Below, piece after piece: positions 13 to 35,146 of a stretch of 35,149 bases of DNA; position 1 is the stretch's first letter; each line of letters opens with the position of its first letter. A program made the position numbers and the translations under genes. Origin of the DNA: a virus; the IMG/VR virus record IMGVR_UViG_3300025929_000035, positions 1 through 35,149 of that record; one strand, given 5' to 3'. The notes below the pieces were generated by a model. That model saw only the letters and a list, made by a program, of their open reading frames with translations. It was not told where the DNA came from and did no database searches.

Positions 13-57
13 TGTCATTTCCTGCGATAACTCTCCGCAGTTCCGAGATAACTTGGG
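13..57 (+). other. Left transposition end (attL) with two transposase-binding-like sites
   Basis: The end begins with TGTCATTTCCTGCGATAACT (13-32). The reverse complement of the right end begins TGTCGTTTCTTACTGTAACT, matching at 15 of 20 positions. A second site with GAGATAACTT lies at 45-54; its GATAACT core is exactly 21 bp from the core of the first (26-32 and 47-53). Terminal 5'-TG...CA-3' and arrays of transposase sites are known for Mu-family elements. That this is the true recombined end is inferred. Positions 1-12 would then be flanking DNA. Confidence 0.75.
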
Positions 58-95
58 GTAGCGCTTTTTTCTTTTTGGCGACTTTTTCTTTTTTA
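58..95. other. Phased oligo-T tracts between attL and the tape measure gene
   Basis: This 38-bp gap holds four T runs, two in each of two imperfect 17-bp copies starting with GCG (61-77 and 78-94). On the gene-sense strand it is purine-rich. It may be bent DNA near the transposition end or part of the tape measure mRNA 3' end. No function can be assigned. Confidence 0.35.
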
Positions 96-3000
96 TCAGG
101 CTGGGATGAGTCGCTCGTTTTGCTGCGAAATTCGCTCTCGGGTGAGGCCGGTTACGAGCGTTCTACCCTGCAATTTGGTCTGGCCCGATAGCTGGACTTG
201 GAGTCTGCCATTTTGTCCAACCGCTACCGGCTGCCGGCCGGATATTGCTCGTTCCGTCGCCTGCGCGGTTTGCGTGGCGAGTTGCGATGCGAACTGACTA
301 AAATCCTTCACCGGGCCGAACACTTCCGGCCCATTCTCGCCGGTGATGCCTAAACCACCATGCTCGAAGCCGAGTGCCCCTTTGATATTGCCCCATTCGG
401 CGATAATCCCTGCCACGGCGACGGCGCCAAGCCCAACGCCCACCAGCGGAACGGCCGATACCCACTGTGCGAACGCCGTGGCGGCCGCGCTGACGATCTG
501 GGCTGCTGCCGTGGCGATCGTCGCGATCTTCTCAGCCAGGAGCGAGATAATGCGTTCCGCGGTGCCTTCATTCGTTGCGACGGTCTTCGTTTCCTCGCCT
601 AAAATGTGCGCGGCAACCTCCGCAGCCTTGCCCGCTATGAATTCGGCCAGATAATTCTCGATCGCCTTCTTACCCGCCTCGTAAACATCGTTAAAGCCCT
701 TCGCCAGGCGCGTATTCACGTCGTCATTTTGCGAGGCTTCGAAATTCGTCCGCTGTTGGGTCAGATCGGCGAGCTTTACATTGTATTCGGTCGCGGAAAT
801 CAGCCCGCGCGCAAATTGCGATCGAAGATCGTTCTCCGTTTTGTCGAATCCAAGCTGCTTTACGTTCGCCGCCGTCGCGTCGAGCGCCGTAGTCTTCGCC
901 GTCAGGTCGTTCCAGATCGTCAGGATGCCGTCGTGTATCGCTTGCGTGACATCCAACTGATTCTTCTTGAAGAGATCGGCATATTTCGTGCGGATGCCAT
1001 AGATTTTACCCTGAAGATCGCTCTCGGCCGTCGTCACTTGCGCTTGCTCGGAAGGTGTTAGCGTAAATCCGGCCGCTTGCTTGGCGTCCAGCGCGGCGAG
1101 GAGTGCCTGCGCGGCTTGCGTGGCCGCATCGATCTCCTTTTGCTCCGCATCCTTCATGATGGCGAGCTTTTGATCGGCGCTTTCTTTGAAAATTAACTTC
1201 CCATTCTCATCGATGGCCGTCAGGTTCGAAAGTTCCAGCGCGGCCTGACTGTTGAGCAAGGCAATCTTCGCATCGGCCGAGTCTTTCGCGTCAGCCAGTT
1301 CGTTATCGTGTTCCGTTTTTTGCAGCGAGAGGATTTTCTCCGATAACTGTGCCCGTTGTGCCAACGCATCGGCCGCCGCAGTGGGGTCGGTCAGCGGAAT
1401 TCGTATCCTATCGAATTGCTCCTGCAATATCGCGATCTGATCTTCGACATTGGCATTGTCCTCGATCTTCGGATGGAGGAAGAAATCCGATTGCGTCTGC
1501 GCGATCGTAAGCATCGCCGATCGCAGATCGTCCTCGGCTTTGGCTCGATCGACCGTGATCTTAAATTGCAGGTTACCGATGTTCGTCGTGAAGTCCCGGT
1601 TGATCTGCGCGAGGTTCCGCGAAATCTCCTGTGCCTTGATCGGGTCGATGGCCTGGAAGGCTTTGATCTGCGCCTGGATGTTCTGCACGCCGTTGGCCTG
1701 GTGAAGGAACGATTGATACGTCTTCTCCGCAATATCCAACTCCTCCTGCGAGGTCAGCGTGCGGTGTTGCGCGTCGGCTGTCAGTTGCAGGCTGGCGCGT
1801 AATCGGTTGCCATCGGCCGTCGCCGTGGCTTGCGCCTTCGAAAGGTTATCGGCAGCATTCGCGCCGGTCAGGTCCCCAAGCGTTTTCTGTGCATCGGTCG
1901 CGCGGCGCGACTGCTGTTCCCATAGTGAGAGGATGTCCAAGTTCTTCTGCACGCCCTGCGCCATCGCCAGCACGCTGCCGGTCCAGTCCTTGAACCCGGC
2001 CGCGGCCTCCTGCCGGAATTGCTGGAGCGATACCGAGGGCTTCCCAATGTCATTCGCGATCTGTTGAAGATCGGCTTGCACCGACGCCTGGATGCCCTTG
2101 ATGTTATCCGTCGACTGCTGCGCCTGCGTCTGCTGATGTCCTTCCAGGGCCTTGGCCGAGGCGAGGAACTTGTTATCGGCATCGGCCCACGCTTTGGCTG
2201 CGGTCTCGGCAGCCGTCTCGCTTTCACTGCCGACCTTCTTCATCGTGCCGGCCAACTCTGCCGCCGCCGATGCCGCGCCAGTGATCGGCGCGGTCACACC
2301 TTCCTGAATGCCTTTGCCGATCTGTTTCGCGCCGTCTTTGACTTTTGTAAAATCGCCGGTAACAATTCCATCGATCACTTCGAAGAGGCCGCCGAACCCA
2401 TCGATCAGCGCATGGATCGCCGCCATGAAATCGCCCTCGATAAACGCCCAGCCGACCTTCAGCACGTCCCAGATCGAATCCATGATATTGCGCGCGGCCT
2501 CGCTATGGTCGTAAAGCTGTATCAGCCCTTCGACCAACAGGAAAATGACGCCAATGATAAGCCCGATCGGGTTTGCTTCTTCGGCTTCGTTCAGCCCTTC
2601 CTGCGCGACCTTCGCTCCCTCGGTCGCGGCGATGCCGGCCGTCTCGGCCGCCTTCTTGGCAAAGAGTCCTGGGATGAGATGTTCCAAGATTTCCTTCCCA
2701 AGCTTGGTCGCCTCGCCGGTAAGTTCCTCTAACTCCTTCGACATGCCGCCCGCTTCTTCGACCGCGAAGTTTGCCTTCAGGAGTATCCAGGCACCCGCCG
2801 CCGTTTCGACGGCCGTCTTATTCTCTTCGAGGAACTTTGTGGTGTCTTCGATGCCCGTAGCCAATTCGGTCAGCACCGGAAGCACCGGGTCGATCGCGGC
2901 GACCAAGGCGCCGCCTAACGCGCCCTCGGTCTCCTGCAAGTCCTTCTGGAACTGCAATAGCCCCGCCTGTGGCGAATCCCCGATCTTCTGCGCGAACCCG

Positions 3001-3902
3001 CCAAACTTCGCCTCGGTCGCCGCCAGGAATTTATCGACGTTCCCTTCCACATCGCCGGGGTTGAAGTCGATATGAAGTTCCCGCACGGTACCGCCGGAGG
3101 AAAGCTTATTCGAAATGTCGGCGCTGACTTCATCCAGCGACCGGTTCGTGCGCGCCGCGAAATCTTCCATGCGCGCCGAAAACTCTTCCAGCTTGGCCGT
3201 GTCCTTCAACTGCCCGAGCGACGCGCCCAGCGCGATCGTGTTCTCGATCGACGCCTTGGTGAATTGCGTCGTATGGTCCTGCACCTCGGCAAATTGCGTC
3301 AGCGTGGCGATCGCCTCTTTGCCGCTATTGGGAAGTTCATTGAGCGCGATCGAGAGGCCCTGCGCGGCCCGCTGTTGGTCCTCGAACTGCGTGACCGAGC
3401 CAATGAGCGTCGAAATGCCGCCCTGCACGCCGGCCACGCCCGCGCCCAGCGTCAGCGCCTTCTTAATCTCCGATCCGAACGACGAAGCCGAATTTTTGAC
3501 CGAATCGAATTCGGCCGGTATCCGCGCGACCTCGGAACGAAAGTTCGTGACCGCCTGCGCATTGAACCCTTCCTTCACCGGCGTTTGCAGCGCCTTGATC
3601 TGCTCGGTCGCCGTGGCAATCTGCGCGTTCAACGCATTGATCTTCGTCGGGTCTTCCGCCGCGTCCCGCGCCGTTTTCAGGTCGGCGAGGTTCTTCTTCC
3701 AGGTGTCGATCGATTGCACCTGCTGCAATACTTTCGAATTCAGCGCATCGAGGGTCGTCGTCGTGGCCGCCGCGTCCACGCCCAGCGTAATGCCCGATCC
3801 CTTCGCGATCGAGGTAAGCTGATCCTGCACGCCATTCAGGATGCTATCCGTGTTACCCTTGTCGAAGGTAAGCTTCGCCAGTACGTCGAAGACCTGTGCC
3901 AT
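96..3902 (-). CDS. Tail tape measure protein
   Basis: The protein sets tail length and lies in the tail lumen before DNA ejection. It has 1268 residues and is the longest gene here. It is rich in Ala, Gln, Glu and Lys with long predicted coiled-coil stretches (roughly 40-130, 580-760 and 790-1000). It has a hydrophobic helix near residues 444-463 and a second hydrophobic region about 100-150 residues before the C-terminus. The stretch FEHGGLGITGENGPEVFGP near the C-terminus is the Gly-rich motif common at tape measure C-termini. It lies downstream of the chaperone pair, as usual, but a 715-aa gene intervenes. It is the last gene before the left end, so no distal tail genes follow. The ATG start is preceded by a copy of the 15-bp leader element. 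The size would suit a long non-contractile tail; no sheath gene is seen. Confidence 0.9.
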   Translation of the reverse strand: MAQVFDVLAKLTFDKGNTDSILNGVQDQLTSIAKGSGITLGVDAAATTTTLDALNSKVLQQVQSIDTWKKNLADLKTARDAAEDPTKINALNAQIATATEQIKALQTPVKEGFNAQAVTNFRSEVARIPAEFDSVKNSASSFGSEIKKALTLGAGVAGVQGGISTLIGSVTQFEDQQRAAQGLSIALNELPNSGKEAIATLTQFAEVQDHTTQFTKASIENTIALGASLGQLKDTAKLEEFSARMEDFAARTNRSLDEVSADISNKLSSGGTVRELHIDFNPGDVEGNVDKFLAATEAKFGGFAQKIGDSPQAGLLQFQKDLQETEGALGGALVAAIDPVLPVLTELATGIEDTTKFLEENKTAVETAAGAWILLKANFAVEEAGGMSKELEELTGEATKLGKEILEHLIPGLFAKKAAETAGIAATEGAKVAQEGLNEAEEANPIGLIIGVIFLLVEGLIQLYDHSEAARNIMDSIWDVLKVGWAFIEGDFMAAIHALIDGFGGLFEVIDGIVTGDFTKVKDGAKQIGKGIQEGVTAPITGAASAAAELAGTMKKVGSESETAAETAAKAWADADNKFLASAKALEGHQQTQAQQSTDNIKGIQASVQADLQQIANDIGKPSVSLQQFRQEAAAGFKDWTGSVLAMAQGVQKNLDILSLWEQQSRRATDAQKTLGDLTGANAADNLSKAQATATADGNRLRASLQLTADAQHRTLTSQEELDIAEKTYQSFLHQANGVQNIQAQIKAFQAIDPIKAQEISRNLAQINRDFTTNIGNLQFKITVDRAKAEDDLRSAMLTIAQTQSDFFLHPKIEDNANVEDQIAILQEQFDRIRIPLTDPTAAADALAQRAQLSEKILSLQKTEHDNELADAKDSADAKIALLNSQAALELSNLTAIDENGKLIFKESADQKLAIMKDAEQKEIDAATQAAQALLAALDAKQAAGFTLTPSEQAQVTTAESDLQGKIYGIRTKYADLFKKNQLDVTQAIHDGILTIWNDLTAKTTALDATAANVKQLGFDKTENDLRSQFARGLISATEYNVKLADLTQQRTNFEASQNDDVNTRLAKGFNDVYEAGKKAIENYLAEFIAGKAAEVAAHILGEETKTVATNEGTAERIISLLAEKIATIATAAAQIVSAAATAFAQWVSAVPLVGVGLGAVAVAGIIAEWGNIKGALGFEHGGLGITGENGPEVFGPVKDFSQFASQLATQTAQATERAISGRQPVAVGQNGRLQVQLSGQTKLQGRTLVTGLTRERISQQNERLIPA

Positions 3903-3927: not shown

Positions 3928-6075
3928 TTAATTCCTTACGGTAATTGTTAAGGTTGCGACGCCGGCATTGCCGTGCAGATCGTAGGCAAGGATCGTGAGA
4001 ACGTGCGTCACCGGCGATGCGACGCTTCCCGTAAGCTTCGTCGTATCGAGCGAAAGGTCCCACTCGGTATTCGCGGCGTCGCCCATGTTTGGTGTCGTTA
4101 CGCGCGTCTGGAATAAAATTCCGTCGATCGCCATCGTCACCTGCGACACGCCCGATTGATTGCTCGTTACTACTTTCACCGCGACGGTTCCCGAAATCGG
4201 CGCGCCGGTCGGATTGGTGATGGTGACGCCAGGCACATCCCTCGATCCCGAGGAACCCGCCGCCGTGCTTGGGCCATTCACCGGCGGAAGCGTGAAGGAG
4301 GAGGGAGGTATCTCGATGAGTTTCCATTCGATGCCGGCGCCGGGCGTGCGCGTGCAGCCGATCGCCGTAAAGAGCCGAGCGGTCGAAACGCCGTTCGCTT
4401 CGAGCACGTCATCGTTCACCGTGGAGAAAATTCCAGGCTCGATCGTAATTTTGCGGTGAAGCGGGAAATAAGCCCAGTCCCATAGCAGGAAGGTCTTTTG
4501 CGGCGCGGCGATGCCGGCGGGCAAGTCGGCGCCGAACGGCGCAATGCCAACGCCCGCGCCCTGGATGGTACAGACCGCGCGCGGCATCCCCCAGCGCGTG
4601 TATCGCTTCACCGCGTGCAGCGTTGTCCAATCGGTGTAGGGCAGCCCGCCACTGCCGGGCACGCCGCCTTGCGAAATAAGGTCCCAGCCTTTGCGGACCG
4701 GGATGTAATCGGTGTTGGCGTCGTTGCGAACATATAATTCCCATCCGCGCGGGCTGTCCACCGATGCGCCTCCAACAACGCTCGATCCCATGAATCGAAA
4801 GAGTGTCGTGTACGATTGGTCCGATCCGCCCTTCATCGGCGAAGCGATCGTGCTATAAGGAGGTTGCGGGAAGAGATCGGTGGTCGAAGGTTCGGTGATC
4901 TTGTAATTCGAAGCATAGGCGGCCGCAGGGTTCATATCGATCCCGTCCTGGTTCTCATCGATGTACGCATTCAGCACGGCCGCTTCGAGCGGCATAATGA
5001 GAAAACGCGCCCATTCGTCGTAGTCAACGCCTGCGCCATTGGACCAGGTGTTCGGAAGTTCGCCCTGTAACGTTAGGAATAATTCCCGGCACATCTCCGC
5101 AATCCCTTGCGCGATCGTCGTCCAGCGATAGAAGGAGGTCTGGTCCGCCGCCGCCGGTGGTACCGGCTTGAAGAGCAAACCTCCCAGCACGCCGCCCACG
5201 AAGGGAATCTTGATATAAATATCCCAGAGGTTCGAGAACCATAGGGCCTCGCTGCCATTGAGCGCAATTTCCAACTGGCCCCACGCTTCGCGATGGCCCG
5301 TTAGTTCGACCCCTTGCACGATCGGGACCAAACGATGATCGGCCAAATATTTGAACAGCGTGGGCGAAAACGCATTGATAAGTTCCAACATCACCTGCCC
5401 CAGCGAGAGATAACCTCCGCCTGGCACGATGCCGGCCAACTCGTCGAGCGATGTAATTACTTCATCGTCCCCGTGGGCCTTCATCCATGCGATAAATTCC
5501 ATATCGAGCGCGCCGATATGGTTTTTGTCCATTCGCACGATCGCGTTCGTAACGCCCGCCGTCGGCCGGCCGACGCGCGCATGTGGCACGAAGCGCTGGA
5601 TCGAGGGTTTGTCGTGCAGCGAAGAGGCGTTTAGAATGCCCCAGAAGACGTGGTGCCGCTTGGCCGGCCATAAGAACGAGGACGCTCCGATGCTCACTCT
5701 GGCGTCCAACACGGGCTGTTCTAACGCCAGCAGTGCCCACACCTCCCACTCGGTCGAACGCGCGGCTTCCACCAGCGGAACAAGTTCTGGCCGCGACGCC
5801 AATGAGACCTTCAGCGTTTGAACGCTCGGTACCGACTGCTCGTATTCGCTCTCCGTGGCAATGGCGATCGGGCCAAGGCTGTCGAGCATCGATGGCGCAA
5901 GGACCGTGGGAGCAATGGGAGTGGCAGGAAGAGGGAAGTGGCTATTATCGTTGATCGCCGAATAATGATACTCCAACTGCTTTTTCGTTCCATACGGCAC
6001 CGAATAAAGATGAAGGGTATAGATCCCTTCATCTTTCTTCTGCGCGATCGTAAAATGAAACGGTAATAAGCTCAT
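3928..6075 (-). CDS. Virion structural protein with C-terminal Ig-like domain (tail tip candidate)
   Basis: This 715-aa protein was not matched to a named family. Residues about 605-715 look like a bacterial Ig-like domain: a DVPGVTITNP start, alternating beta-strand pattern, the LTILAYDLHGNAG segment and a TLTITVRN end. The rest is mixed alpha/beta with many aromatic residues and no signal peptide. It lies between the tail assembly chaperones and the tape measure gene, so it is probably a tail component. As no separate distal tail, hub or baseplate gene is recognisable, it may fill that role; Ig-like domains on tail proteins often bind surface glycans. The start ATG at 6075 follows CATCATCG, a partial match to the leader element. 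Function is inferred from position and the Ig-like end. Confidence 0.6.
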   Translation of the reverse strand: MSLLPFHFTIAQKKDEGIYTLHLYSVPYGTKKQLEYHYSAINDNSHFPLPATPIAPTVLAPSMLDSLGPIAIATESEYEQSVPSVQTLKVSLASRPELVPLVEAARSTEWEVWALLALEQPVLDARVSIGASSFLWPAKRHHVFWGILNASSLHDKPSIQRFVPHARVGRPTAGVTNAIVRMDKNHIGALDMEFIAWMKAHGDDEVITSLDELAGIVPGGGYLSLGQVMLELINAFSPTLFKYLADHRLVPIVQGVELTGHREAWGQLEIALNGSEALWFSNLWDIYIKIPFVGGVLGGLLFKPVPPAAADQTSFYRWTTIAQGIAEMCRELFLTLQGELPNTWSNGAGVDYDEWARFLIMPLEAAVLNAYIDENQDGIDMNPAAAYASNYKITEPSTTDLFPQPPYSTIASPMKGGSDQSYTTLFRFMGSSVVGGASVDSPRGWELYVRNDANTDYIPVRKGWDLISQGGVPGSGGLPYTDWTTLHAVKRYTRWGMPRAVCTIQGAGVGIAPFGADLPAGIAAPQKTFLLWDWAYFPLHRKITIEPGIFSTVNDDVLEANGVSTARLFTAIGCTRTPGAGIEWKLIEIPPSSFTLPPVNGPSTAAGSSGSRDVPGVTITNPTGAPISGTVAVKVVTSNQSGVSQVTMAIDGILFQTRVTTPNMGDAANTEWDLSLDTTKLTGSVASPVTHVLTILAYDLHGNAGVATLTITVRN

Positions 6076-9206: not shown

Positions 9207-9224
9207 GGTGTGTTAGTTGGTTAG
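9207..9224 (-). promoter_or_regulatory. AC-rich leader before the tail tube candidate
   Basis: On the minus strand the leader is CTAACCAACTAACACACC immediately before ATG. It overlaps the last codons and stop of the glycosyltransferase gene. It resembles the capsid gene leader at 16698-16720 (CTAAtCAACC...AACACAtCC). No Shine-Dalgarno sequence is present, so such leaders may promote initiation by being unstructured. Confidence 0.5.
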
Positions 9225-10304
9225 TGCTGTGCTGGCCTTGTGGGCTGGCATGTGTTTCGTGAAATTTTCAGAGGCGAGGTTCGCGATCGTCCGCTCCTTC
9301 GCGTCCTTTGGCAGGATCGGGCAGTGCAGCACGGCTTCGAACGCGCCGCGTGCATAGTCGATAAAGCCCATGTAATAGGCGGCGATCGCGTATTCTTCCA
9401 ATAGCCGCCATCCGGCGTTCGGATCGACAAAGCAGATGTCCGGCGTCATCGAGGGTACGGCCTCGCGCGCCAGGGCGTACATGTCGGCATAGCGCTCTTG
9501 CTCGCGCAAAATCATCATCAGGTCCACGCGCGCTTCGCAGCGGCTGGGGCGGTACCGGCACGCTTCGCGGAAATCCTCTTCCCGGTTCGTCATCCGCGCG
9601 ATCTGCCACAGCGAGAGATAGACTTCCTCCTCCCAACCGCCCATCGCAACGCGTTCGCGGTATTTCGCAATCGCTTCGTCGGTCCGCTTCAAATCGCGGA
9701 GCGTGTTCGCATGATAAAAAACGTTCCGAGAGGTCTTCTCCGCCGTTTCGAAGAGTTCCAAATGCCCTAAGAACTTATTGCCGCTGACCGATTGATGCCC
9801 GCCGGGCTTCGGGACGATACAGCAGGAGGTGATCTTACCCGCGCGGGTATTGGCAGAATGCGGGCCTTCGCGGTACGGGTGCTCGTGGCACACACCTTTG
9901 TAGCGCCAGGTACCATCGTTGCGGAAAACGCGCACGGACCAAAATTCGCAGTCCTCATGGACAATCTTGATCGAATACGAATCGAACGGCTTGCCGTCCT
10001 TCGCCAGGGGAAGGACGAGCGGACCTTCGAGTGTTTCGTCGGCGTCCAAAATAAAAATCCAGTCGCCGGAAGCGGAAGCGATCGCAAGGTTGCGGTTCGT
10101 CGAAAAATCGACCCATTTATCCGAACGCAGGGTTCCCGGTACCCGCCGGAACATTTTCGAAATGATCGCCTTCGTGTCGTCCGTCGAGCCGGTGTCCGAA
10201 ATCGAGAACGAATCGATCTTGCCGCGCACGCTCTTCAAAGCGCGCCCGATCACCGGCGCTTCATTGCGCACGATCATCGTGAGGCAAATGGTCTCTTTCT
10301 TCAT
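9213..10304 (-). CDS. Family 2 glycosyltransferase with C-terminal TPR-like repeats
   Basis: The 363-aa protein begins with the GT-A fold signature of family 2: LTMIVRNEAPVIGRALKSV at residues 8-26, DTGSTDDT at 37-44, and FILDADETLEG at 84-94, where Asp87-x-Asp89 is the metal/nucleotide-sugar motif. WRYKGVCHEHPY near residue 137 matches the acceptor-side region of this subfamily. Residues about 190-350 are helical repeats (AIAKYRERVAMGGWEEEVYLSLW, RYADMYALAREAV), as in SPOT/TPR-fused glycosyltransferases. It is cytoplasmic, with no membrane segment. It overlaps the end of the collagen-like fibre gene by one base at the shared stop/start region, so it is translationally coupled to it. It probably glycosylates that fibre; alternatively it could alter host surface glycans, though its place in the late tail operon argues against that. 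Confidence 0.88.
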   Translation of the reverse strand: MKKETICLTMIVRNEAPVIGRALKSVRGKIDSFSISDTGSTDDTKAIISKMFRRVPGTLRSDKWVDFSTNRNLAIASASGDWIFILDADETLEGPLVLPLAKDGKPFDSYSIKIVHEDCEFWSVRVFRNDGTWRYKGVCHEHPYREGPHSANTRAGKITSCCIVPKPGGHQSVSGNKFLGHLELFETAEKTSRNVFYHANTLRDLKRTDEAIAKYRERVAMGGWEEEVYLSLWQIARMTNREEDFREACRYRPSRCEARVDLMMILREQERYADMYALAREAVPSMTPDICFVDPNAGWRLLEEYAIAAYYMGFIDYARGAFEAVLHCPILPKDAKERTIANLASENFTKHMPAHKASTALTN

Positions 10305-13418: not shown

Positions 13419-13775
13419 CTATGCGCGTGTAACGGTTCCCTTCACGACGAAGCGGCCCTTGATGACGTACCGCTCCCATTCATTGCAAAAAATGTCGTAG
13501 GCGTAGGCGCCTTCCGGAAGCGCGGCCACATCGGAGGAACTTAAATTTAAGATTCCATCCGTGGCCGGCGCGTTCGTTGTAATCGTAATCGCGGCGCGGA
13601 GCGCGCTGCGCGAACTGGTGTCCTCGCGCACCTGGGAGACAAAGGTCAGCCCGCTAAGATCGACGGCCATGCCGGAAGATTTCTGCGTCAGCGTAATACT
13701 CGTGTTGGCGATCGACGCTCCGCGGTCGATCGCCAAATCCACCGAGCCAGCCTGGGCGAGGTTTACTTCCGTCAT
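13419..13775 (-). CDS. BppU-N-like Ig-fold tail/fibre-associated protein
   Basis: A 118-aa all-beta protein. The pattern [14 protein letters not shown] (residues 39-52), ending in [15 protein letters not shown] and [16 protein letters not shown], resembles the N-terminal domain of phage baseplate/upper fibre proteins of the BppU type, which attach fibres to the tail. It sits directly upstream of the large collagen-like fibre and downstream of a small collagen-like gene, so it may be an adaptor or base of the fibre. Detection is by motif pattern only. The start at 13775 (ATG) lies 12 nt after the previous stop. Confidence 0.55.
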
Positions 13776-13787
13776 GGCTCACGTTGG

Positions 13788-14117: not shown

Positions 14118-14121
14118 AATG

Positions 14122-16697: not shown

Positions 16698-16720
16698 GGA
16701 TGTGTTGGTTGGTTGATTAG
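16698..16720 (-). promoter_or_regulatory. AC-rich leader before the capsid gene
   Basis: The 23 nt before the capsid ATG are almost free of G on the coding strand and contain CAACCAACCAACACATCC. The tail tube candidate has a near copy (9207-9224). The match supports 16697 as the start rather than an upstream TTG at 16736. Confidence 0.5.
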
Positions 16721-16725
16721 TGTAC

Positions 16726-17298: not shown

Positions 17299-17299
17299 A

Positions 17300-17330: not shown

Positions 17331-17408
17331 GCTCCGTCGTGCCATAGGCGGGCATATTTGCGTAGATGTACCGGTGATTGCCGGTGATACTATTTAGCAT
17401 GGAGAGGC

Positions 17409-17439: not shown

Positions 17440-17472
17440 CAAGCACAAAATGTCAGTAACCTATCCACGGCG

Positions 17473-21191: not shown

Positions 21192-21651
21192 GCCCAAAGC
21201 AATCGAAGTCATCCAGAAGGCCGAACGCAAGTTCGTAAACGATGGCCTTACGTCGCTCACGCAGCTTGCCCAGGCAACCGGCGTGACGCGCAAAACGCTG
21301 GGCACCTGGCGCGCGAAATACGAGTGGGACCGCAAGCGCGCCGAAATAACCGCGCAGCCGGAAGAGATCGGCGACCGGATCAAACGGTCGCTGCACCTCA
21401 TCATGGACGATCTCGAAGAAGCGATCCGCGGCAAGAATACCGCGATCATCAAACTGAAGGTGAGCGATCTGGAAAAGATCGTCCGAAGCCTTGCGAAGAT
21501 CGATGCGCTCTTCGACAATAAGGGCGCGCTCATCAAGTTCTGCTACTCCTTCGTGGATTTCGTGGCAACGCTTCCGAAGGAACGTTCCCTCCTGGTGCAT
21601 CTCAAGCGAGTGCTGCCGCTCTACATCGAACACGTCGAGAATAACGGATAG
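21184..21651 (+). CDS. Terminase small subunit candidate
   Basis: A 155-aa protein. Residues 1-50 contain a DNA-binding HTH (SLTQLAQATGVTRKTLGTWRAKYEWDRKR) typical of small terminases. The remaining helical part (EEAIRGKNTAIIKLKVSDLEKIVRSLAKIDALF) would form the oligomer. It overlaps the portal gene by 8 bp and precedes the large terminase directly. Mu gp27-like proteins have a similar build. It would recognise the packaging start, probably near a phage end. Confidence 0.72.
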   Translation: MGRPKAIEVIQKAERKFVNDGLTSLTQLAQATGVTRKTLGTWRAKYEWDRKRAEITAQPEEIGDRIKRSLHLIMDDLEEAIRGKNTAIIKLKVSDLEKIVRSLAKIDALFDNKGALIKFCYSFVDFVATLPKERSLLVHLKRVLPLYIEHVENNG

Positions 21652-25072: not shown

Positions 25073-25705
25073 TCATTGAAGGTTTCGCCGCACTTCGACG
25101 ACGCGGACGAGCCGAAGGATTTCATTTTCGGGAATGTAGAGTGTCGGGAATTCTTTGTTGGTCGGAAGCAAGGCATACGCCTTCGCTTTCTCATCGCGGC
25201 GCACGCGCTTTAACGAGTGCTCTCCTTTCGTAGTGACGGTCGCATAAATCTTTCCATTCACGAAGGGTTCCAACGGCGAAACAATGACGACATCGCCCTC
25301 CTGAATTTCCGGTGACATCGAAAAGCCCGAGACGATCAGCGCGAAGGCCTTCGGATCGCGAACCTCGCTTCGGATATAGCCTAAGATTCCATATTCTCCA
25401 AAGCCCATCGTGATAGGACCGGCGGGAATATGATCCAACACGGGAATATCCACCTCCAAGGGTTCACCATGCGGGCTGGCCTCTTCTCCGGAGAGAAGGT
25501 AATATAGCGAGACGTTCCGATTGATCGCATAGCGTTCCAAGGCCTCAATGCCAGGAGAGGACTCGCCCCTCTCATAATCATACCACGTTCGGGCGCTAAC
25601 GCCAGCGATGGCAGCCGCTTCGGCTTGACTTAATTTCGGCGGTTTTCCGCGAAGCTCTCGCAGCCGTTTGCCGATCTCCACAGGGCTTCTTGGTTGTGTT
25701 TCCAT
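25073..25705 (-). CDS. Lysogeny repressor (HTH plus S24 peptidase)
   Basis: A 210-aa protein. Residues 10-72 are an XRE-type HTH (LSQAEAAAIAGVSARTWYDYERGESSP). Residues 85-205 are the S24 LexA/CI fold: HIPAGPI with probable self-cleavage at Ala95-Gly96, GFSMSPEIQEGD with nucleophile Ser129, and SLKRV with Lys166. It should keep lytic genes off and be inactivated after DNA damage. It is transcribed leftward, divergent from the early genes; the 122-bp gap (25706-25827) holds the operator/promoter. Mu's own c repressor lacks such a domain, so this resembles B3/D3112-type or lambda-like control. Confidence 0.9.
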   Translation of the reverse strand: METQPRSPVEIGKRLRELRGKPPKLSQAEAAAIAGVSARTWYDYERGESSPGIEALERYAINRNVSLYYLLSGEEASPHGEPLEVDIPVLDHIPAGPITMGFGEYGILGYIRSEVRDPKAFALIVSGFSMSPEIQEGDVVIVSPLEPFVNGKIYATVTTKGEHSLKRVRRDEKAKAYALLPTNKEFPTLYIPENEILRLVRVVEVRRNLQ

Positions 25706-25744
25706 TCGAATGCTATTTTGTTAGCAAAAATCTCGCATTACCTC

Positions 25745-25775
25745 TTGACTTTTCGCAATTAATTGCGTAAGTTTG
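25745..25775 (+). promoter_or_regulatory. Early lytic promoter
   Basis: TTGACTTTT at 25745 is followed, 23 nt from its first base, by TAAGTTTG (25768-25775), a perfect TAnnTTTG Bacteroidota -7 box. It faces the Ner-like gene and the transposition operon. The spacer contains the operator palindrome. Confidence 0.65.
25754..25767. promoter_or_regulatory. Operator palindrome CGCAATTAATTGCG
   Basis: A perfect 14-bp palindrome lies between the -33 and -7 elements of the early promoter, where a bound repressor would block polymerase. A weaker inverted repeat TTTTGTTAGCAAAA-like sequence lies nearer the repressor start (about 25718-25731) and could serve autoregulation. Likely ligands are the repressor and/or the Ner-like protein. 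Confidence 0.6.
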
Positions 25776-25827
25776 CAGTTACAAGTACGTCGCAATACGA
25801 AGTTCATCCACAAAGATACGAAATATT

Positions 25828-26091
25828 TTGCAGGACAGCAAAAAAAAATGGGAGCCTACGGACGAAGAGCGTGCGCATTACTTGAAACTGATGCACACCA
25901 TTCGGCGCAGTGCCAATGATATTGCAAGAATGTGTGGCATCAGCGGGACGACCGTCCGGGACGTGCTGAATAACGATAGGAAGCACTTTGCGTCGGCCGA
26001 GACGGTGCGGAGAATATTCGCGAAGATCGATAGCGAGGCAACGGCCCTGGGAGAGGCCATTAACCGGCTTTCCGGCCATAATTTGAATTAA
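25828..26091 (+). CDS. Ner/Cro-like small DNA-binding protein
   Basis: 87 aa if started at TTG 25828; the only in-frame ATG (25891) would give 66 aa and still keep the HTH. The HTH is SANDIARMCGISGTTVRDVLNN (residues about 28-49), followed by helix SAETVRRIFAKI. Position as first gene opposite the repressor matches Ner of Mu or Cro of lambda, which shut down early transcription. The start choice is uncertain. Confidence 0.68.
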   Translation: MQDSKKKWEPTDEERAHYLKLMHTIRRSANDIARMCGISGTTVRDVLNNDRKHFASAETVRRIFAKIDSEATALGEAINRLSGHNLN

Positions 26092-27903: not shown

Positions 27904-28692
27904 ATGCTGACCAAAACACAAATCGAAAGTTTCCGCGATGCCGGCGAGGCCTTGCAGGAGCGAAAGCCGGTTTTACTGACCGGCAATTCGAACGGGAAGA
28001 CGACGATCCTTCACTCCGCGCTCGAAGTGCTGGGACAGCGCGACGAGAAGACCGGATTTTATTCGACCAATCCGCGGCATCCCGAGGACCGAACGATCGA
28101 CTTCTACCGCGTTTATTTGGGATATAATTCCCACCTTCCGCAAGTGATGAAAATGGTCCTTGCTTTTTCGGGCCGCAAGCCGAAGCGCTTCGCCGCGGAC
28201 GCGGTGATGCAATACGACGATTTCATGCGCGAGATGTCGCAGAAGGGCCGCGCGGTCTGCCTGGCGGTCGATAATGCGGAATTGTTACCGGCCCGTGCCT
28301 ACACGGTCCTCAAAGCGCTGAACGAATATCACGATCCCTTAACGCGCAAGTCGATCGGCGCCGGGCTTCTCATCGCGGGCAATATTACGAAGCTGAAGAA
28401 GATGCCGGCCAGCTTTATGCTCCGCGCGAAAGAAATTTTGGTGGGAAGGATTGGCGTCGATGAAATTACGGGCCTCATCGAGGCTTTGTATCCGCATGAG
28501 ATACGCTGGTTCGGCGCCGACGCGATGAAGCGAATCGCGGTCTGTAACACGACGCTCCAAATGAAATCGGTGATCGAGCGGTGCGTCGCGGACCGGAAGC
28601 GCTACCGCCTGACCGAGATCGGCCGCGACATGGTGGAAGAGAAGATGAGCGACCTTCCCAACGATGGATATAAATTAGCACAAGCCGCATGA
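27904..28692 (+). CDS. MuB/IstB-like AAA ATPase, transposition activator
   Basis: A 262-aa protein from ATG 27904. Walker A is GNSNGKTT (residues 27-34) and Walker B VCLAVDNAE (118-126). Gene position next to the DDE transposase and size agree with the MuB/TniB/IstB group, which binds target DNA and directs transposase. Mu's B gene encodes an N-terminal HTH domain of about 60 residues before the ATPase; here the ATPase begins within 25 residues of the start, so that domain is missing (see 33182-33475). C-terminal residues form a helical lid (MKSVIERCVADRKRYRLTEI). Order ATPase-before-transposase is opposite to Mu. Confidence 0.82.
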   Translation: MLTKTQIESFRDAGEALQERKPVLLTGNSNGKTTILHSALEVLGQRDEKTGFYSTNPRHPEDRTIDFYRVYLGYNSHLPQVMKMVLAFSGRKPKRFAADAVMQYDDFMREMSQKGRAVCLAVDNAELLPARAYTVLKALNEYHDPLTRKSIGAGLLIAGNITKLKKMPASFMLRAKEILVGRIGVDEITGLIEALYPHEIRWFGADAMKRIAVCNTTLQMKSVIERCVADRKRYRLTEIGRDMVEEKMSDLPNDGYKLAQAA

Positions 28693-28814
28693 GGGGATTT
28701 ATCCATGACGCGAGAATCGCCATCGAGGTGGCATTCGAAATTGGTTACCCGACCTTAGCTTGGAAGATTTTCAAATTTTATCGCGACGCGAGGCAAACGT
28801 TCGATCATGTGTGA
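28689..28814 (+). CDS. 41-aa coupled small protein
   Basis: ATG 28689 overlaps the ATPase stop (ATGA) and the frame ends at 28814, 8 bp inside the transposase gene. The sequence starts MRGFIHDARIAIEVAFEIGY and ends in a basic, aromatic helix (LAWKIFKFYRDARQTF). It would couple translation of the ATPase and the transposase. Function unknown. Confidence 0.48.
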   Translation: MRGFIHDARIAIEVAFEIGYPTLAWKIFKFYRDARQTFDHV

Positions 28815-30402
28815 CTTTAACGAATTGTTTTTGGAAGAGACGAGGCAGGAGTACGGCCGGCGTTACGCGCAGAAGCCGTATGACGCCGCGGCGTATCTTC
28901 GTGACGTTGCGCAACGAAAGGGCGTTTCGACCGCCACGCTCCACCGGCATTTGAAGCTCGACGTGCGCAAGAGGCGCGAAGTGCCGATCGCCACGCAGGC
29001 GCGGCAAGCCGAAATCGATTCCTACACGCGCATGATCTGGGAATTTTCCATTGCGCATTCGTTCGACCTCAATAAGATCAGCGTGCAGTTGGCCTGGGAG
29101 CATTTGATGCGCGAGGACCGCCTTCCGAAGACGCTGACGACGAAGCAAGTCTATGCCTCGATGCGCCGCCAGCGTTTACGCAATAATTCCGCGACGACGT
29201 GGAAGAAAATTCCCGAACGCAGGAAGCCGATGGACACCTGGCAGATGGACTTTTCCAAATCGCGATATTTCAAGCACCACATCTCCGCCGATGGCGAAAT
29301 CGAATGCGTCGCGCCGGTCACGACAAAGCGGCAGGACGACGGACGTTCGCTCTGGTTTGGCGTGGCCGTCGATATGGCGACGCGCGTGCTCTACGTCAAA
29401 TATTTCATCTCTCCGGGCGAGTCGGCCGAGAGCGTGATTGAATTTACGCTGGACGCTTTCGACGCCAAGCCCGGCATGTTCCTGTTGCAAGGGGTTCCCT
29501 CGTCGGCGTATGTCGATAATGGTTCCGGCTGGCTCGATGGCCGCATGGCGAACGGGCTGAAGAAGATCGGCGTGAAGGAAATTCTCGGTGGGTACCAGAA
29601 GGACGTTCACGGCCGCGCCTTGCCGAAGCGTAACAAGCAGGGACGCGGGCAGGTGGAGCGGTCGGTTAATACGATCAAGAACCGCATGGAAGCGGCGCTC
29701 TATCTTCGCATGGGCAAAGGGCGGAAACTGTATTTGAAAGACCTGAACGAGGCGGTGCAGGAATGGCTCGAAGAATGGAACCAGGGGCCGCACCCGATGG
29801 ACCGCACGGCGTCGAAGATGAACCTCTTCCTCGAACATGCGGGTAACCATTTCGAGCATTTGATCTATCCGCCGGAAGATGCGCGGGCACTCTTCAGCCG
29901 GTCGGTGATGAAGACCGTCGCGCGGCGCAAAATTTCGGTGGCGAAGAACACCTACGCCTTCGCGCCGGCCTTCGTCGATGATGGCGAATCGGTCGAGATC
30001 GTGAAGAACCAGATGGGCTATTTCCTTTTCAAGGGCGGCGAAATGCACGCGCTCCAAATCGAGAGCGAGAGTGCCGCCACGGTCGCCGCGCCACGGAGTA
30101 CCATCGTGCGCGAATTGAAGGACGCGAAGCTTTCGGACCTGGCACTACGCAAGCGCTTCGACGAGGAACTTCTTCGCGAGACGGGGAAGACGATCGGCCG
30201 CATGGCCGACGACGATTGGAACGATATTGCGCCGTTCTTCGAAGCGCCGCGCTCGGTGAAGGAGATCGAGGAGAAGGTCGCCTGGATGAAGATGCAGTCC
30301 GAGATTGCCTCGCACCCGCCGGTCGCCATGCCATCGAACATTATTCGAATGCCCGCGGAAAGTTTTATTGGGATAAATCATCCCGGAAAGGAACGATTAT
30401 GA
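28807..30402 (+). CDS. DDE transposase (MuA-like)
   Basis: A 531-aa protein. Residues 1-55 look like an HTH (AAYLRDVAQRKGVSTATLHRHL). The RNase H-like rve core carries Asp148 (TWQMDFS), Asp237 (AYVDNGSGW) and Glu284 (GQVERSVNTIKN), the DDE triad. A Mu-type C-terminal beta barrel follows (KISVAKNTYAFAPAFVDDGE), then a helical end that may contact the ATPase. It would cut and join the 21-bp-spaced repeats at the genome ends. Shorter than MuA (663 aa), mostly at the N-terminal DNA-binding part. Its stop overlaps the next ATG (ATGA). Confidence 0.9.
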   Translation: MCDFNELFLEETRQEYGRRYAQKPYDAAAYLRDVAQRKGVSTATLHRHLKLDVRKRREVPIATQARQAEIDSYTRMIWEFSIAHSFDLNKISVQLAWEHLMREDRLPKTLTTKQVYASMRRQRLRNNSATTWKKIPERRKPMDTWQMDFSKSRYFKHHISADGEIECVAPVTTKRQDDGRSLWFGVAVDMATRVLYVKYFISPGESAESVIEFTLDAFDAKPGMFLLQGVPSSAYVDNGSGWLDGRMANGLKKIGVKEILGGYQKDVHGRALPKRNKQGRGQVERSVNTIKNRMEAALYLRMGKGRKLYLKDLNEAVQEWLEEWNQGPHPMDRTASKMNLFLEHAGNHFEHLIYPPEDARALFSRSVMKTVARRKISVAKNTYAFAPAFVDDGESVEIVKNQMGYFLFKGGEMHALQIESESAATVAAPRSTIVRELKDAKLSDLALRKRFDEELLRETGKTIGRMADDDWNDIAPFFEAPRSVKEIEEKVAWMKMQSEIASHPPVAMPSNIIRMPAESFIGINHPGKERL

Positions 30403-31051: not shown

Positions 31052-31612
31052 ATGCCAGCACTCTCCGATCTGACGAACGAGCAAGCCAAGCAATATTTAG
31101 AGATCGAAGAGATCGTGCGCGCGCGCCGCGGACATTGCTCCGGCTTCGACCGCGTAAAGCTTTTGGAACTCTATAAGCTGCATGGCGGCGTGAAATTACT
31201 CTTCGTGATCGATCAGTCGATGATGAACGATTGGCTCTTGCCGGGCCGCTGGATCGAGTTTATGGACGTCGTGAATAAATATGGGATCGACCGGGTGCTC
31301 TTTGCAACGAAGGCGCTGAACCGGTTGGAAAATCACTCCATCGCGATGGTCGAGAATATTTGCAAGGACCCGAAGCTTGCCGAACGCAAGCGGCCGGGAA
31401 TGAAAGACGAAGCGCCGCGGCCCATCAGCCCCACGCAACAACGCGCACTGATCTATCCGACGAAGGAAGGCGTCCACACCGAAACGACGGCGGCCAAATG
31501 GCTTCGCGAACAGGAAAAGGGCGTCGAAGCATGGCCCGAATTTTTTGACAAAGCCGGTTCCGACGAGGTGACCGGATGGAGATTGTACCAACTAAAACCA
31601 GAATACCGATGA
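31052..31612 (+). CDS. Hypothetical early/middle protein
   Basis: A 186-aa protein with helical N-terminus (LTNEQAKQYLEIEEIVRARR), central helical section (FDRVKLLELYKLHGGVKLLF) and a mixed C-terminus. No signal, membrane or metal motif. It precedes the Gam-like gene with a 4-bp overlap. Unrecognised; may be a regulator in the place of Mu's semi-essential early genes. Confidence 0.58.
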   Translation: MPALSDLTNEQAKQYLEIEEIVRARRGHCSGFDRVKLLELYKLHGGVKLLFVIDQSMMNDWLLPGRWIEFMDVVNKYGIDRVLFATKALNRLENHSIAMVENICKDPKLAERKRPGMKDEAPRPISPTQQRALIYPTKEGVHTETTAAKWLREQEKGVEAWPEFFDKAGSDEVTGWRLYQLKPEYR

Positions 31613-32139
31613 AGAAAATACTCGTATCACTCGCCGATGTGGAGTCGGCGTTAAACGAACTCCAGACCGTCGAAGCGGAAATCGAAGCCGAGTCGGCCGA
31701 AGCAAACAAAGTCATCGCGCAGGCGCGGACGCAGATCGTTCCAACGATCGCGGAGAACGAAGGGCTTGCCAAACGCCTGCGGACCGCGATCGAGAATTGG
31801 GCCGAGGAGCACCGCAACGACGAGGAATTATTCCCGGCCGGACGTAAGACCCTCGAATTGCGCGCCGGGACCATCGCATTCCGTCAGTCCGCGCCATCGC
31901 TGGTGCTAATGCCAGGCTGGAAGACCGAGGACGTTGTCGCGGAACTTAAAGATGCCGACGCCGCGGTGAAGAAGGCCGGTATCAAGACGCCCGATCCGAC
32001 GCTCGACAAAACGGCTATTAAAAAGCTGTACGACCAGGGGAAGATCGACGCGAAGGGACTCAAGGCCCTCGGCCTCGAAATCCAAACGACCGAGAGCCTT
32101 TCGATCACGACCAAAACGCTGGAAGCCTACGAGGTATAA
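31609..32139 (+). CDS. gam: Gam-like host-nuclease inhibitor (DNA end-binding)
   Basis: A 176-aa protein from ATG 31609, which overlaps the preceding stop. Residues 1-75 form a long coiled coil (ADVESALNELQTVEAEIEAE, ANKVIAQARTQIVPTIAENE); the middle carries GRKTLELRAGTIAFRQSAPSL and the end KTAIKKLYDQGKIDAKGLKALGLEI. This is the Mu Gam family plan; Mu Gam is a Ku-like dimer that protects phage DNA ends from exonucleases. Position after the transposase genes agrees with Mu. Confidence 0.8.
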   Translation: MKKILVSLADVESALNELQTVEAEIEAESAEANKVIAQARTQIVPTIAENEGLAKRLRTAIENWAEEHRNDEELFPAGRKTLELRAGTIAFRQSAPSLVLMPGWKTEDVVAELKDADAAVKKAGIKTPDPTLDKTAIKKLYDQGKIDAKGLKALGLEIQTTESLSITTKTLEAYEV

Positions 32140-33181: not shown

Positions 33182-33475
33182 ATGGAAAGTCTTCAAGTCC
33201 GCGCGGCCGCGTTGGTCCAAGCGGGGATGCTGAAATGGATCGACCTGGCGCGCGAGTGCCACATATCGACGGCCGTCATCTCGCTATGGAAGGCGGCCAA
33301 GTACACCGGCAACGTGCGATCGCTCGAACGGAAAATAGAAATCATCGTGCGCCGGTTCGAAGCGGTGCCGGTGCGCCTGACGCCCAAGGACCAGACCACG
33401 CTAACGAGACTCTTACAATTACTCGATGAATCCGACGACCGCACCGCCATCCTCGCAACCCTCGCTCGGTTCTAA
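33182..33475 (+). CDS. MuB N-domain-like HTH protein
   Basis: A 97-aa protein. Residues 9-60 read LVQAGMLKWIDLARECHIST then AVISLWKAAKYTGNVRSLER and KIEIIVRRF. This has the order of the MuB N-terminal HTH: a helix, an 'A-R-x-x-x-I/V-S-x-x-x-I/L-S' helix pair, a 'K-Y-x-G-x' turn and a last helix. The 262-aa ATPase lacks this domain. The gene overlaps the next one by 50 bp. It could be the DNA-binding part of a split MuB or an independent Cro-like regulator. Confidence 0.65.
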   Translation: MESLQVRAAALVQAGMLKWIDLARECHISTAVISLWKAAKYTGNVRSLERKIEIIVRRFEAVPVRLTPKDQTTLTRLLQLLDESDDRTAILATLARF

Positions 33476-33833
33476 GAGCATCGTGGGCGATGCGGGGCAG
33501 CCCTCGCTCGGCACCGATTTCGAACCGAAGTCGATGGACCAGTTGATCGCAGAAACGATCGACGCGATGTTCGAGCGCGGCGAATCTTCGGAGGCGATCG
33601 CGATAGAGGTCTCAAGGATCACGAAGGAATTCGCGAAGGAAGCGCCGCTCCTCGAACGCGCGGCGCAATGCCCGAAATGCAGGGAGCGGACCGGCTTTCG
33701 CACGATCCGTTCGACGTGGCTCGACATGGGCAAGTCGCGCGAACGGGTGTGCCGGAACCAATCCTGCGGCTACTTTTTTCGGACGTTCGAACCATTTCCA
33801 AAATATGAAGAGCAGACGGCAGGACGGCGTTAG
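33426..33833 (+). CDS. Ogr/Delta-like zinc-ribbon protein, late activator candidate
   Basis: A 135-aa protein. The first half is acidic and partly disordered; the C-terminal 55 residues hold CPKCRERTGFRTIRSTWLD, CRNQSCGYFFRTFEPF, i.e. Cys-x2-Cys ... Cys-x4-Cys with the 'RT-x-R-S' and 'FFRTFE' segments found in P2 Ogr/P4 Delta zinc fingers that switch on late genes. NrdR-type ribbons look similar, so the family is likely but not certain. Position near the end of the middle region fits a late activator. Confidence 0.6.
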   Translation: MNPTTAPPSSQPSLGSKSIVGDAGQPSLGTDFEPKSMDQLIAETIDAMFERGESSEAIAIEVSRITKEFAKEAPLLERAAQCPKCRERTGFRTIRSTWLDMGKSRERVCRNQSCGYFFRTFEPFPKYEEQTAGRR

Positions 33834-34023
33834 GATCGAAGAGATAGATGATCCCATTAAAGCTTCGGCCTGGCACTTTGCCGACGTTGCTGGCGATGTA
33901 CAATTTATGCTTAATTGCGATCCTCCTCTTGTTCTCGAAATGGATGCCGAAGAACGAAAAGCCTATTGTGACGCGCTTAATCATTTATCCACTCTTCAAT
34001 CCCTGCTTTGGAAATACGCATGA
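33805..34023 (+). CDS. Hypothetical small acidic protein
   Basis: A 72-aa protein, overlapping the zinc-ribbon gene by 29 bp. An acidic helical end (EERKAYCDALNHLSTLQSLL) and VLEMDAEE in the middle. No family recognised. Its stop overlaps the start of the gpF-like gene. Confidence 0.5.
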   Translation: MKSRRQDGVRIEEIDDPIKASAWHFADVAGDVQFMLNCDPPLVLEMDAEERKAYCDALNHLSTLQSLLWKYA

Positions 34024-34946
34024 CAACACTGACCCGCATTGCCTTGCGCGATGAAGTGGACGCGACGCTCGAAGCGCTCATCGAGAAGGGGCACCCTTAC
34101 GATGCGTTCGCATCGAAGCCCGAAGAGCAGCAGGTCCGCGCGGCGCTATACGATCGGTGGACGATGGGCGTCACGCGATCGCTTGCGATGGTGCGCGGGC
34201 AGGTGGGACTGACGAAGGAGAACGTCGAGTATATCTTCAATACCAACTTGGGTTATGGCGCAATGACGCGTGGCCTGGCATCCCAAATTTCAACGCCGGT
34301 ATGGACCGCGTTCAATAACGGGCGCGCGGCGTCCAGCGCGCTCTTTACGAAGCAAACGGGACGGGACCCGATGCAGAAGGATATGGTCGGCTTCGGCGCG
34401 ATCTTTGGACTGACCGAAGACCATGCGCTGCAAGCGATGCTCGATCAGATAACGATCGCCGCGGGCGGGTTTTGGGACCAGCAATTATCGGACTCGATCA
34501 AAGCACAATTGGAAGCGTATTTCGCTGGCGAAATGACGCGCGAGGAACTTGTATTGAAGATCGAAGAGATGGTAAATGCGCGGCTGGCGATCGGGGGACA
34601 ATCGTCGCTGCCATCGTCGTATTTCGATAACCTTGCCGTGCATCAGATCACCAGGGCGCGGAACGTCGGAGCCTATTATCGCGCGAAGTCGTTGGGGGCC
34701 GTGCATTACCGGATTATGAACCCGCACGATCGGCGGACGTGCCCGATCTGCAAGCCGGTCACGCAGGGGCAGCTTTACACGATGTCGGGCGCGGAGGCAG
34801 CGATCTCTGGGATACTCACGGCGCGATCGACGGAGGACCTGAAAGCGGCCTCGCCCTGGCTGAAGGTGGGGGATGATCCGGCGAATCCGGTACCACCGCT
34901 TCATTGGGCACAATGCCGGTGCTGGATGGAATTTGTATTTGAGTGA
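34020..34946 (+). CDS. Mu gpF-like head morphogenesis protein
   Basis: A 308-aa protein from ATG 34020 (ATGA overlap). A long helical part is followed by the SPP1 gp7/Mu gpF C-terminal domain: VHYRIMNPHDRRTCPICKPV with Cys-x-x-Cys and TQGQLY, then PPLHWAQCRCWMEFVF with Cys-x-Cys at the end, a zinc-binding set. Such proteins are minor head proteins attached to the portal. Here it lies 11 kb from the portal and terminase genes, at the end of the early/middle operon, which is unusual. Confidence 0.85.
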   Translation: MTTLTRIALRDEVDATLEALIEKGHPYDAFASKPEEQQVRAALYDRWTMGVTRSLAMVRGQVGLTKENVEYIFNTNLGYGAMTRGLASQISTPVWTAFNNGRAASSALFTKQTGRDPMQKDMVGFGAIFGLTEDHALQAMLDQITIAAGGFWDQQLSDSIKAQLEAYFAGEMTREELVLKIEEMVNARLAIGGQSSLPSSYFDNLAVHQITRARNVGAYYRAKSLGAVHYRIMNPHDRRTCPICKPVTQGQLYTMSGAEAAISGILTARSTEDLKAASPWLKVGDDPANPVPPLHWAQCRCWMEFVFE

Positions 34947-34958: not shown

Positions 34959-35032
34959 AAATTGGCAAAACCGCACCGATTGAGGCCGCGGACCATGGCC
35001 GACCGCGCAATTTTGTGAGCGCCAATTTTTAT
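34959..35032 (+). terminator. Possible terminator at the right end
   Basis: AAATTGGC (34959-34966) pairs with GCCAATTT (35021-35028), followed by a T-run and ATT (35029-35032). The arms are far apart (54 nt), and only partial pairing is seen between them, so this is a weak call. It would end the rightward operon. No gene is visible from 34947 to 35146. Confidence 0.35.
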
Positions 35033-35050
35033 TAGGGTAAGGATGAGGAT

Positions 35051-35146
35051 ATTATCTCAAAGCTTTTGTTACCCATCCCGTGAAGTATCGAGTCCTAACG
35101 AGTAAAGTTATCTCAAGAAAATAAGGAGTTACAGTAAGAAACGACA
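35051..35146 (-). other. Right transposition end (attR) with three sites
   Basis: On the minus strand, starting at 35146, the end reads TGTCGTTTCTTACTGTAACT. The second site has GAGATAACTT (35114-35105), with its core exactly 21 bp from that of the first. A third, weaker site GAGATAAT (35058-35051) lies 56 bp further inward. The first two mirror attL sites L1 and L2 in sequence, direction and spacing. The three bases after 35146 (TCG) would be flanking DNA. Confidence 0.75.

Follow-up and report, generated by a model that had tools for sequence, protein, structure and literature searches.

An apparently complete transposable phage genome with paired candidate sites at both ends, probably from a Bacteroidota-type host

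The DNA analysed here, referred to as the window, is the whole IMG/VR record IMGVR_UViG_3300025929_000035 (35,149 bases). We conclude with high confidence that it represents one complete genome (positions 13-35146, 35,134 bp) of a temperate transposable phage, probably from a Bacteroidota-type host, flanked by 12 outside bases on the left and 3 on the right. A full element of about this length had been proposed in an earlier note made from the letters of the window, and the proposal is borne out by a prophage in a metagenome-assembled genome (MAG), G489, which ends at the same two gene positions. The termini are the following.

13-54, + strand: left terminus, TGTC and two candidate transposase sites at 21-bp spacing; same gene position as the end on G489 contig C72
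35105-35146, - strand: right terminus, inverted TGTC and two candidate transposase sites at 21-bp spacing; the end on G489 contig C159 is at the same gene position, apart from an extra methyltransferase gene there
35049-35058, - strand: possible third right-end site, GAGATAATAT, a weak match (8/10)

The left end reads TGTCATTTCCTGCGATAACTCTCCGCAGTTCCGAGATAACTT from position 13, and the right end, inverted, reads TGTCGTTTCTTACTGTAACTCCTTATTTTCTTGAGATAACTT from 35146. Both begin with TGTC and agree at 15/20 positions, as the earlier note had described, and at 16/21 and 27/42 positions over longer stretches. The exact word GAGATAACTT is found twice in the window, at 45-54 (+) and 35105-35114 (-), equally distant from TGTC, and is the longest inverted word common to both 300-base tips. 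It forms the second site of each arm; the first, outer site is degenerate at each end (GATAACTC at 26-33 on the left, TGTAACTC at 35126-35133 on the right) and lies 21 bp tipward of the second, which agrees with the spacing claimed beforehand. As to the third right-end site in the same claim, a candidate is present, and its resemblance is weak. Within the window, the pattern TGT-N11/12-[AG]TAACT-N13..16-[AGT]TAACT matches only at 13 (+) and 35146 (-). Comparison of the two window ends revealed no direct terminal repeat.

The short 15/20 match is by itself unremarkable, being reached by 11/300 shuffles of the 100-base tips. The 27/42 match was reached by 0/300 shuffles of the two 100-base tips, the largest value being 25, and it exceeds that of every other one of the 72 x 69 = 4968 TGTC...GACA pairs of the window (next 24). 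The significance of the end match stems from the longer arm, the common register and the location. The paired-site pattern gave 0 matches in 400 Markov-simulated genomes, compared with 2 in the window, both at the tips. We also scanned 349 overlapping loci (4.36 Mb, including the first 3 kb of the window) with the strict pattern and a looser one. The strict pattern matched only the left end of the window and G013, a more distant phage record with a transposase, Gam and a large terminase (TerL) of 31% identity, found among 8 further records read beside 12 control records; it carries TGT-GATAACTC-TATAACTT in the same register, 18 bp from the contig end. The looser pattern adds one place, on G516 contig C37, and a still looser one gives scattered matches in L211, L246 and G244 contigs C1 and C7. 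As a separate observation, an unrelated Mu-like IMG/VR contig (G006 1-70, L181) has GAGATAATT, similar to the window site, twice within 70 bases of its start.

G489 contains a syntenic prophage on two contigs, C159 and C72. The gene order on C159 is that of the window: the TerL C-terminus (recognised by eye), repressor, g26110, ATPase, transposase, Gam, three small genes and the head protein F. Past F, a D12-type methyltransferase gene (13738-14511, -) is followed by the end, GACA at 14717, and then by bacterial-type genes. On C72, homologues of g6091 and g3928 are followed by the tape measure gene and the end; the tape-measure homologue stops at 6553 and the terminus ends at 6736, 183 bp on, beyond which lie ImpB/UmuC, peptide methionine sulfoxide reductase (PMSR), outer-membrane efflux (OEP) and HlyD family genes. 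The 17-base terminus TGTCAAATCCTGCGACT has two perfect matches and zero one-mismatch matches in G489, and the C159 end region used as a query found one other match in that genome, on C72. Inside each G489 terminus, CCTACGACT repeats CCTGCGACT at 21-22 bp, and these termini share with the window TGTC, the left-end TCCTGCGA and the two-site spacing, while the proteins of the two phages are 22-39% identical. Shared sequence running past the ends in a relative was to count against the proposal; the G489 prophage stops at both places, with bacterial genes beyond. Because this relative ends at the same two gene positions with the same termini, we regard the window as complete, rather than as a permuted or arbitrary contig. 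Circular permutation, first suggested by the gene order, is ruled out by G489.

The candidate transposition genes of the window are the following.

28807-30402, + strand: DDE transposase, D148, D237, E284 (phrog_310, 5e-31; IstA/TnsB/integrase fold)
27904-28692, + strand: MuB-like AAA ATPase, upstream of the transposase (AAA_22 1.7e-4, 22.3 bits against a cut-off of 27; GNSNGKTT; homologue adjoins tnpA in G489 and G244)

The predicted DDE transposase is thus supported by both family match and fold, and D148, D237 and E284 are conserved in the transposase alignments. In the structural model, the core (residues ~136-351) aligns with the Rous sarcoma virus integrase (VIA Z 16.1 at 2.6 A), and with IstA and the TnsB of a V-K CRISPR-associated transposon (CAST) at Z 15.5-15.9, the root-mean-square deviation of 10.7-13.5 A applying to longer, multi-domain alignments. 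IstA and TnsB were top-ranked by Foldseek, and the model suggests that the N-terminal helical parts, together with the core, align with IstA and with the CAST transposase TnsB. MuA is not among the fold matches listed, which says nothing either way, and the IS481 profile NF033577 (NCBIfam) was not reached (64.6 bits against a cut-off of 224). The tree places the transposases of the window, G489 and G244 in one clade (100/100), apart from the B3 clade; the positions of Mu A, G506 and G013 are unsure, owing to long branches (3.94 for Mu A). The MuB-like ATPase, which the earlier note had also named, fares less clearly: the B-A gene pair recurs in G489 and G244, and the family match lies below the cut-off. 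A 97-aa protein encoded at 33182-33475 matches part of phrog_296, a 'DNA transposition protein' family (3e-6), even though the ATPase has a gene of its own; it is possibly a split-off MuB-like domain.

The following steps are proposed from the ends, sites, gene set and synteny described above. The transposase would bind both sites, spaced 21 bp, within each TGTC terminus and pair the ends, nick 3' of the terminal CA, and join the ends to target DNA picked with the MuB-like ATPase. Lytic growth would consist of repeated replicative transposition, during which Gam may protect the ends, and the Mu-type terminase would package genomes by headful with variable host DNA. The contig extends only 12 and 3 bases past the ends, presumably because an assembler would halt where the host DNA turns variable. 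An S24 repressor and divergent promoters at 25.7 kb would hold the lysogenic state. Replicative transposition in the style of Mu or B3 is the economical reading because paired end sites, Gam and a Mu-type terminase occur together. By analogy, packaging with host DNA may be expected as in hankyphage, for whose virions PMC12135933 gives 29-31 bp of host DNA at the left end and 1-2.3 kb at the right end.

Several observations weigh against a complete transposable phage genome. The transposase model is just fair (mean pLDDT, the predicted local distance difference test score, 57). The MuB-like ATPase remains below the Pfam cut-off, a profile search of the PDB with this protein returned nothing relevant, and its single-sequence model is useless (pLDDT 35). 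GemA and Mor are not among the Pfam matches of the 9 early proteins at E 0.1. The 12 control IMG/VR records with a transposase match (G001-G012) had no clear paired end at the contig tips when judged by eye; this control says little because several of the records are cut at gene borders. The G516 C37 match, 81 bases from the contig end in an AT-rich stretch, follows a distant F gene but does not point as a right end should, and is probably due to chance. At that place (L334 14047-14200) GTGTCA occurs three times, one copy being followed by two TAACT sites ~22 bp apart, opposite to the right-end direction. Also, G489 is the single relative with both ends, and we infer that C72 and C159 belong to one prophage.

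The 5-bp target duplication that related prophages were expected to have was not seen in G489. Its flanks, GGGCCAT before TGTC and CATTTT after GACA, share just CAT, a 3-base sharing expected by chance 1 in 64; on these separate contigs they lack a 4-, 5- or 6-bp repeat, which is a further point against. These flanks neither confirm nor deny a duplication, because the contigs may be from different cells or the flanks may have been rearranged by transposition. The duplication is 5 bp in Mu and 6 bp in B3 according to a section of PMC8705779, and 4 bp in the transposable phages of P. gingivalis according to a section of PMC10367356. An empty-site search in the G489 family (13 genomes) found the flanking methyltransferase gene in three others, without relatives of the left-flank genes within 2.5-3.1 kb around it.

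We consider it improbable that the element is a cryptic transposable prophage, defective and unable to produce phage any longer. The weak MuB assignment and the failure to recognise GemA and Mor among the 9 early proteins would be in keeping with decay. However, the genes for head, tail, lysis, packaging and transposition and the repressor gene are all present and open, and the contig terminates at the ends of the phage, which is expected of DNA that is packaged or inserted in several places. GemA was not found in fF4 either (PMC7761591), nor was Mor/C in Leptospira prophages (PMC8705779).

Insertion of a transposable phage at one preferred site, rather than randomly, is quite improbable. It could account for the one perfect end pair in G489 and for the shared flanks of distant prophage-like regions in G342 (contig C20) and G506 (contig C99), located at the same locus in both genomes (L338-L340, L335-L336, L344-L345). 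In these regions capsid and protease genes run leftward, followed by the repressor, the transposase and then TerL, portal and a distant F rightward. However, the two are mostly 65-87% alike through the prophage and its flanks, implying that they probably represent one inherited insertion, perhaps an old inherited prophage, and their transposases fall outside the clade profile of the window; their ends are unreadable because the genomes align through the prophage and flanks. A MuB-type partner also suggests spread insertion. Beside the same regulator-like gene in both genomes, at L339 11900-12560 and L336 13270-13910, ~40-base inverted arms (recognised by eye) lie ~600 bases apart and start with GGGGGTCGGTAAAT or GGGGGGCGGTAAAAT, possibly forming a small non-autonomous element.

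That the window is an arbitrarily cut contig of a cos/pac phage, with a transposase that only integrates and end likeness due to chance or an assembly artefact, is very improbable and largely refuted: no duplication is visible and 15/20 alone is not rare, but the pair outscores all others of the 4968 and neither member lies more than 12 bases from a contig end, there are a Gam gene and the B-A pair, and the prophage of G489 breaks off at the same gene positions and gives way to bacterial DNA.

Close relatives of this complete transposable phage are scarce. Single-protein scans of IMG/VR contigs with the transposase, TerL, MuB and portal, which use exact short peptides, detect close kin only and may have lacked the records most similar to that of the window, confirmed none, and the same kind of scan with the transposase core found no relative in genome contigs. 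Alignment scans of IMG/VR contigs with F and with the transposase clade likewise confirmed none. Among the matches listed by the alignment scan were at least 80 distant transposases (23-27%) and at least 80 TerL relatives (up to 31%). In genome samples taken around an Ignavibacteriae bacterium MAG (L262, G025), clear transposase relatives at E 1e-8 were present in 1/395 genomes of the phylum sample and 2/245 of the class sample. The transposase clade profile at E 1e-20 returned again only G489 and G244 from 395 genomes, and in the order holding both genomes 2/13 had relatives at 1e-12; weaker matches (E ~1e-8 to 1e-11) came from a Calditrichia MAG and two IMG/VR records. With the F profile, 6/391 class genomes matched, only G489 strongly. 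In these searches, the nearest relatives lie in one small order of little-studied bacteria. Of the portal and protease relatives, those on a WOR-3 MAG contig (L260 4414-8945) scored highest (113 and 72 bits); the contig also has a TerL at 25%.

In G244, the transposase-ATPase copies have B before A and lie among other genes, and no credible inverted ends were found at their boundaries. There are two such copies, 80% alike over 2.4 kb. One of them (L297 5686-11049; C1 ~485.7-491.0 kb) holds ~5.4 kb with a cyclic-oligonucleotide-based antiphage signalling system (CBASS) operon (E2, CD-NTase, patatin phospholipase) and capP; the insert sits between the ATPase and the sequence that adjoins the ATPase in the other copy. 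A TerL 36% like that of the window lies ~10 kb from the CBASS-bearing copy.

As read from its sequence, the genome is laid out in two arms in a B3-like manner; its transposase belongs to a separate clade, B precedes A, and the early arm has F at its tip. It resembles Beetrevirus (B3, PM105) in its phrog_310-family DDE transposase and TG...CA ends, and B3 in that early and tail arms read outward with the repressor between the divergent arms, which the PM105 map also fits. Unlike in B3, the transposase falls in a separate clade (<=27% local identity), the ATPase gene comes before rather than after it, F lies at the early-arm tip, head and tail genes are not in one arm, and the terminase-portal block (+) is opposite to capsid and tail (-). 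The ends of PM105 lack the sites found here. With Mu, the window shares a transposase, Gam, a Mu-type terminase, an F-like protein and TG...CA ends, and it differs in having two arms instead of one late arm and a repressor ~25 kb from the left end. Mu A is very distant from the window transposase (branch 3.94), and its place is unsure. Relative to Mu, the early operon is inverted in B3, as a passage of PMC5977238 states, and a passage of PMC8705779 describes Leptospira prophages with two outward arms around regulators and varying TnpA/TnpB positions.

Hankyphage, the P. gingivalis phages and fF4 are likewise transposable phages of the same broad phylum, and phage records of Bacteroides (21) and of Porphyromonas (10) contain related terminases. 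For the transposase, 10 phage records match at E 1e-3, none of them from these genera, the presence of hankyphage or fF4 in that collection not having been checked. The gene order of fF4 is Mu-like according to part of PMC7761591. The fold connects the transposase with Tn7-type elements and IS21, IstA and TnsB being the best matches among the transposase rows listed; unlike in Tn402-type, Tn7-type, IS21 and IS481 elements, the element of the window is a whole phage. One transposase-AAA pair among the matches stands beside an integron integrase, and we take it to be of the Tn402 type. Tn552-related transposases are reportedly treated in a paper by Toussaint and Van Gijsegem. G489 and G244 share the transposase clade (100/100) and B before A, and G489 shares in addition the synteny and the ends, differing from the window by the methyltransferase gene between F and the end.

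The remaining features include the portal and virion genes of a tailed phage.

96-3902, - strand: tail tape measure protein, the gene nearest the left end (tape measure family phrog_1535, 1.8e-4; phrog_971 'endolysin' matches too, 1.3e-11)
3928-6075, - strand: conserved phage protein with C-terminal Ig-like domain (Pfam Big_7; homologue at G489 C72 543-2750)
10304-13408, - strand: collagen-like tail fibre protein
15051-16736, - strand: probable major capsid protein (phrog_1623 virion structural protein 6e-20)
16726-17448, - strand: head maturation protease (Peptidase_S78_2 7e-16, phrog_3017)
18170-19201, + strand: SLT-type endolysin (SLT 2.5e-15)
19863-21191, + strand: portal protein (Phage_portal 1e-11, phrog_12)
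21184-21651, + strand: small terminase or DUF1804-like DNA-binding protein (phrog_4151 'DNA binding protein' 2.5e-10; DUF1804 just 0.013)
21670-23247, + strand: large terminase, related to transposable-phage terminases (phrog_38 7e-42; 36% to G244)
25073-25705, - strand: S24-family repressor (Peptidase_S24 and helix-turn-helix (HTH), phrog_4 2e-30; G489 homologue)
25706-25850, no strand: lysis-lysogeny switch (two divergent Bacteroidota-type promoter matches, 25745+ and 25841-)
25828-26091, + strand: small HTH regulator, whose gene opens the early arm (LacI-type HTH 1.2e-4, below cut-off)
31576-32139, + strand: Mu Gam-like end-protection protein (phrog_491 3e-20; Phage_Mu_Gam 2e-17)
33426-33833, + strand: possible Ogr/Delta-like zinc-finger late activator (5.5e-5, below cut-off; G489 homologue)
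34008-34946, + strand: MuF/SPP1 gp7-like head protein (F), last gene before the right end (TIGR01641 4.6e-5, below cut-off; the G489 homologue, close to the right end there, is 39% alike over 244 aa)

Leftward from 17.4 kb run protease, capsid, tail genes, fibre and tape measure, the last stopping 83 bases inside the left end; rightward from 17.4 to 23.2 kb run endolysin, portal and terminases. The early arm reads rightward from 25.8 kb through the HTH regulator, MuB-like ATPase, DDE transposase, Gam and Ogr-like zinc finger to F, which terminates 200 bases short of the right end. The window yielded no tRNA gene. The tblastn matches of TerL include SuMu, JBD30 and LPB1 at 24-26%. TTG-N19-23-TAnnTTTG, which we take to be the Bacteroidota-type promoter consensus, has 2 matches in the whole window, both in the switch and one pointing to each arm; simulated genomes have a mean of 0.6 matches, and 44/400 have two or more, so that the matches are telling because of their placement, not their number. 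The collagen-like fibre was excluded from the homologue tallies since its matches are unspecific. Adjoining it in the tail region (9213-10304) is a SunS-like glycosyltransferase gene (7.8e-12, far under the family cut-off), and glycosylation of the fibre or virion is a possible role.

Transposable phages of Bacteroidetes are already known from hankyphage, fF4 and the P. gingivalis phages. What is new is the lineage, with its transposase clade, its placing of B ahead of A and of F at the tip of the early arm, its opposite-sense terminase-portal block and its hosts, and not the transposable kind itself; it is perhaps a family-level branch. Only tentatively, and with more doubt than belief, we propose that it forms a family-level branch of transposable phages, so far seen in only one small order of Ignavibacteria-like bacteria. 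This branch would have a transposase-ATPase clade of its own in which B precedes A, a pair of transposase sites 21 bp apart at each TGTC end, and a transposition module that also occurs in bacterial defence regions. If this is true, the CBASS-split copy in G244 hints that phages and defence-island elements exchange the transposition module. Our literature search found no earlier description of a Mu-like phage with Ignavibacter, nor of a transposase prophage with Kapabacteria. The window provides an exactly bounded, apparently complete genome with candidate end sites for a lineage whose close relatives did not turn up in our scans of IMG/VR or among the named phage and plasmid records that we searched. 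It illustrates that, even when no isolate is available, the ends of a transposable phage can be fixed from contig ends together with a syntenic prophage in a MAG. Transposable phages would thereby be extended to hosts for which the literature search had found no such phage.

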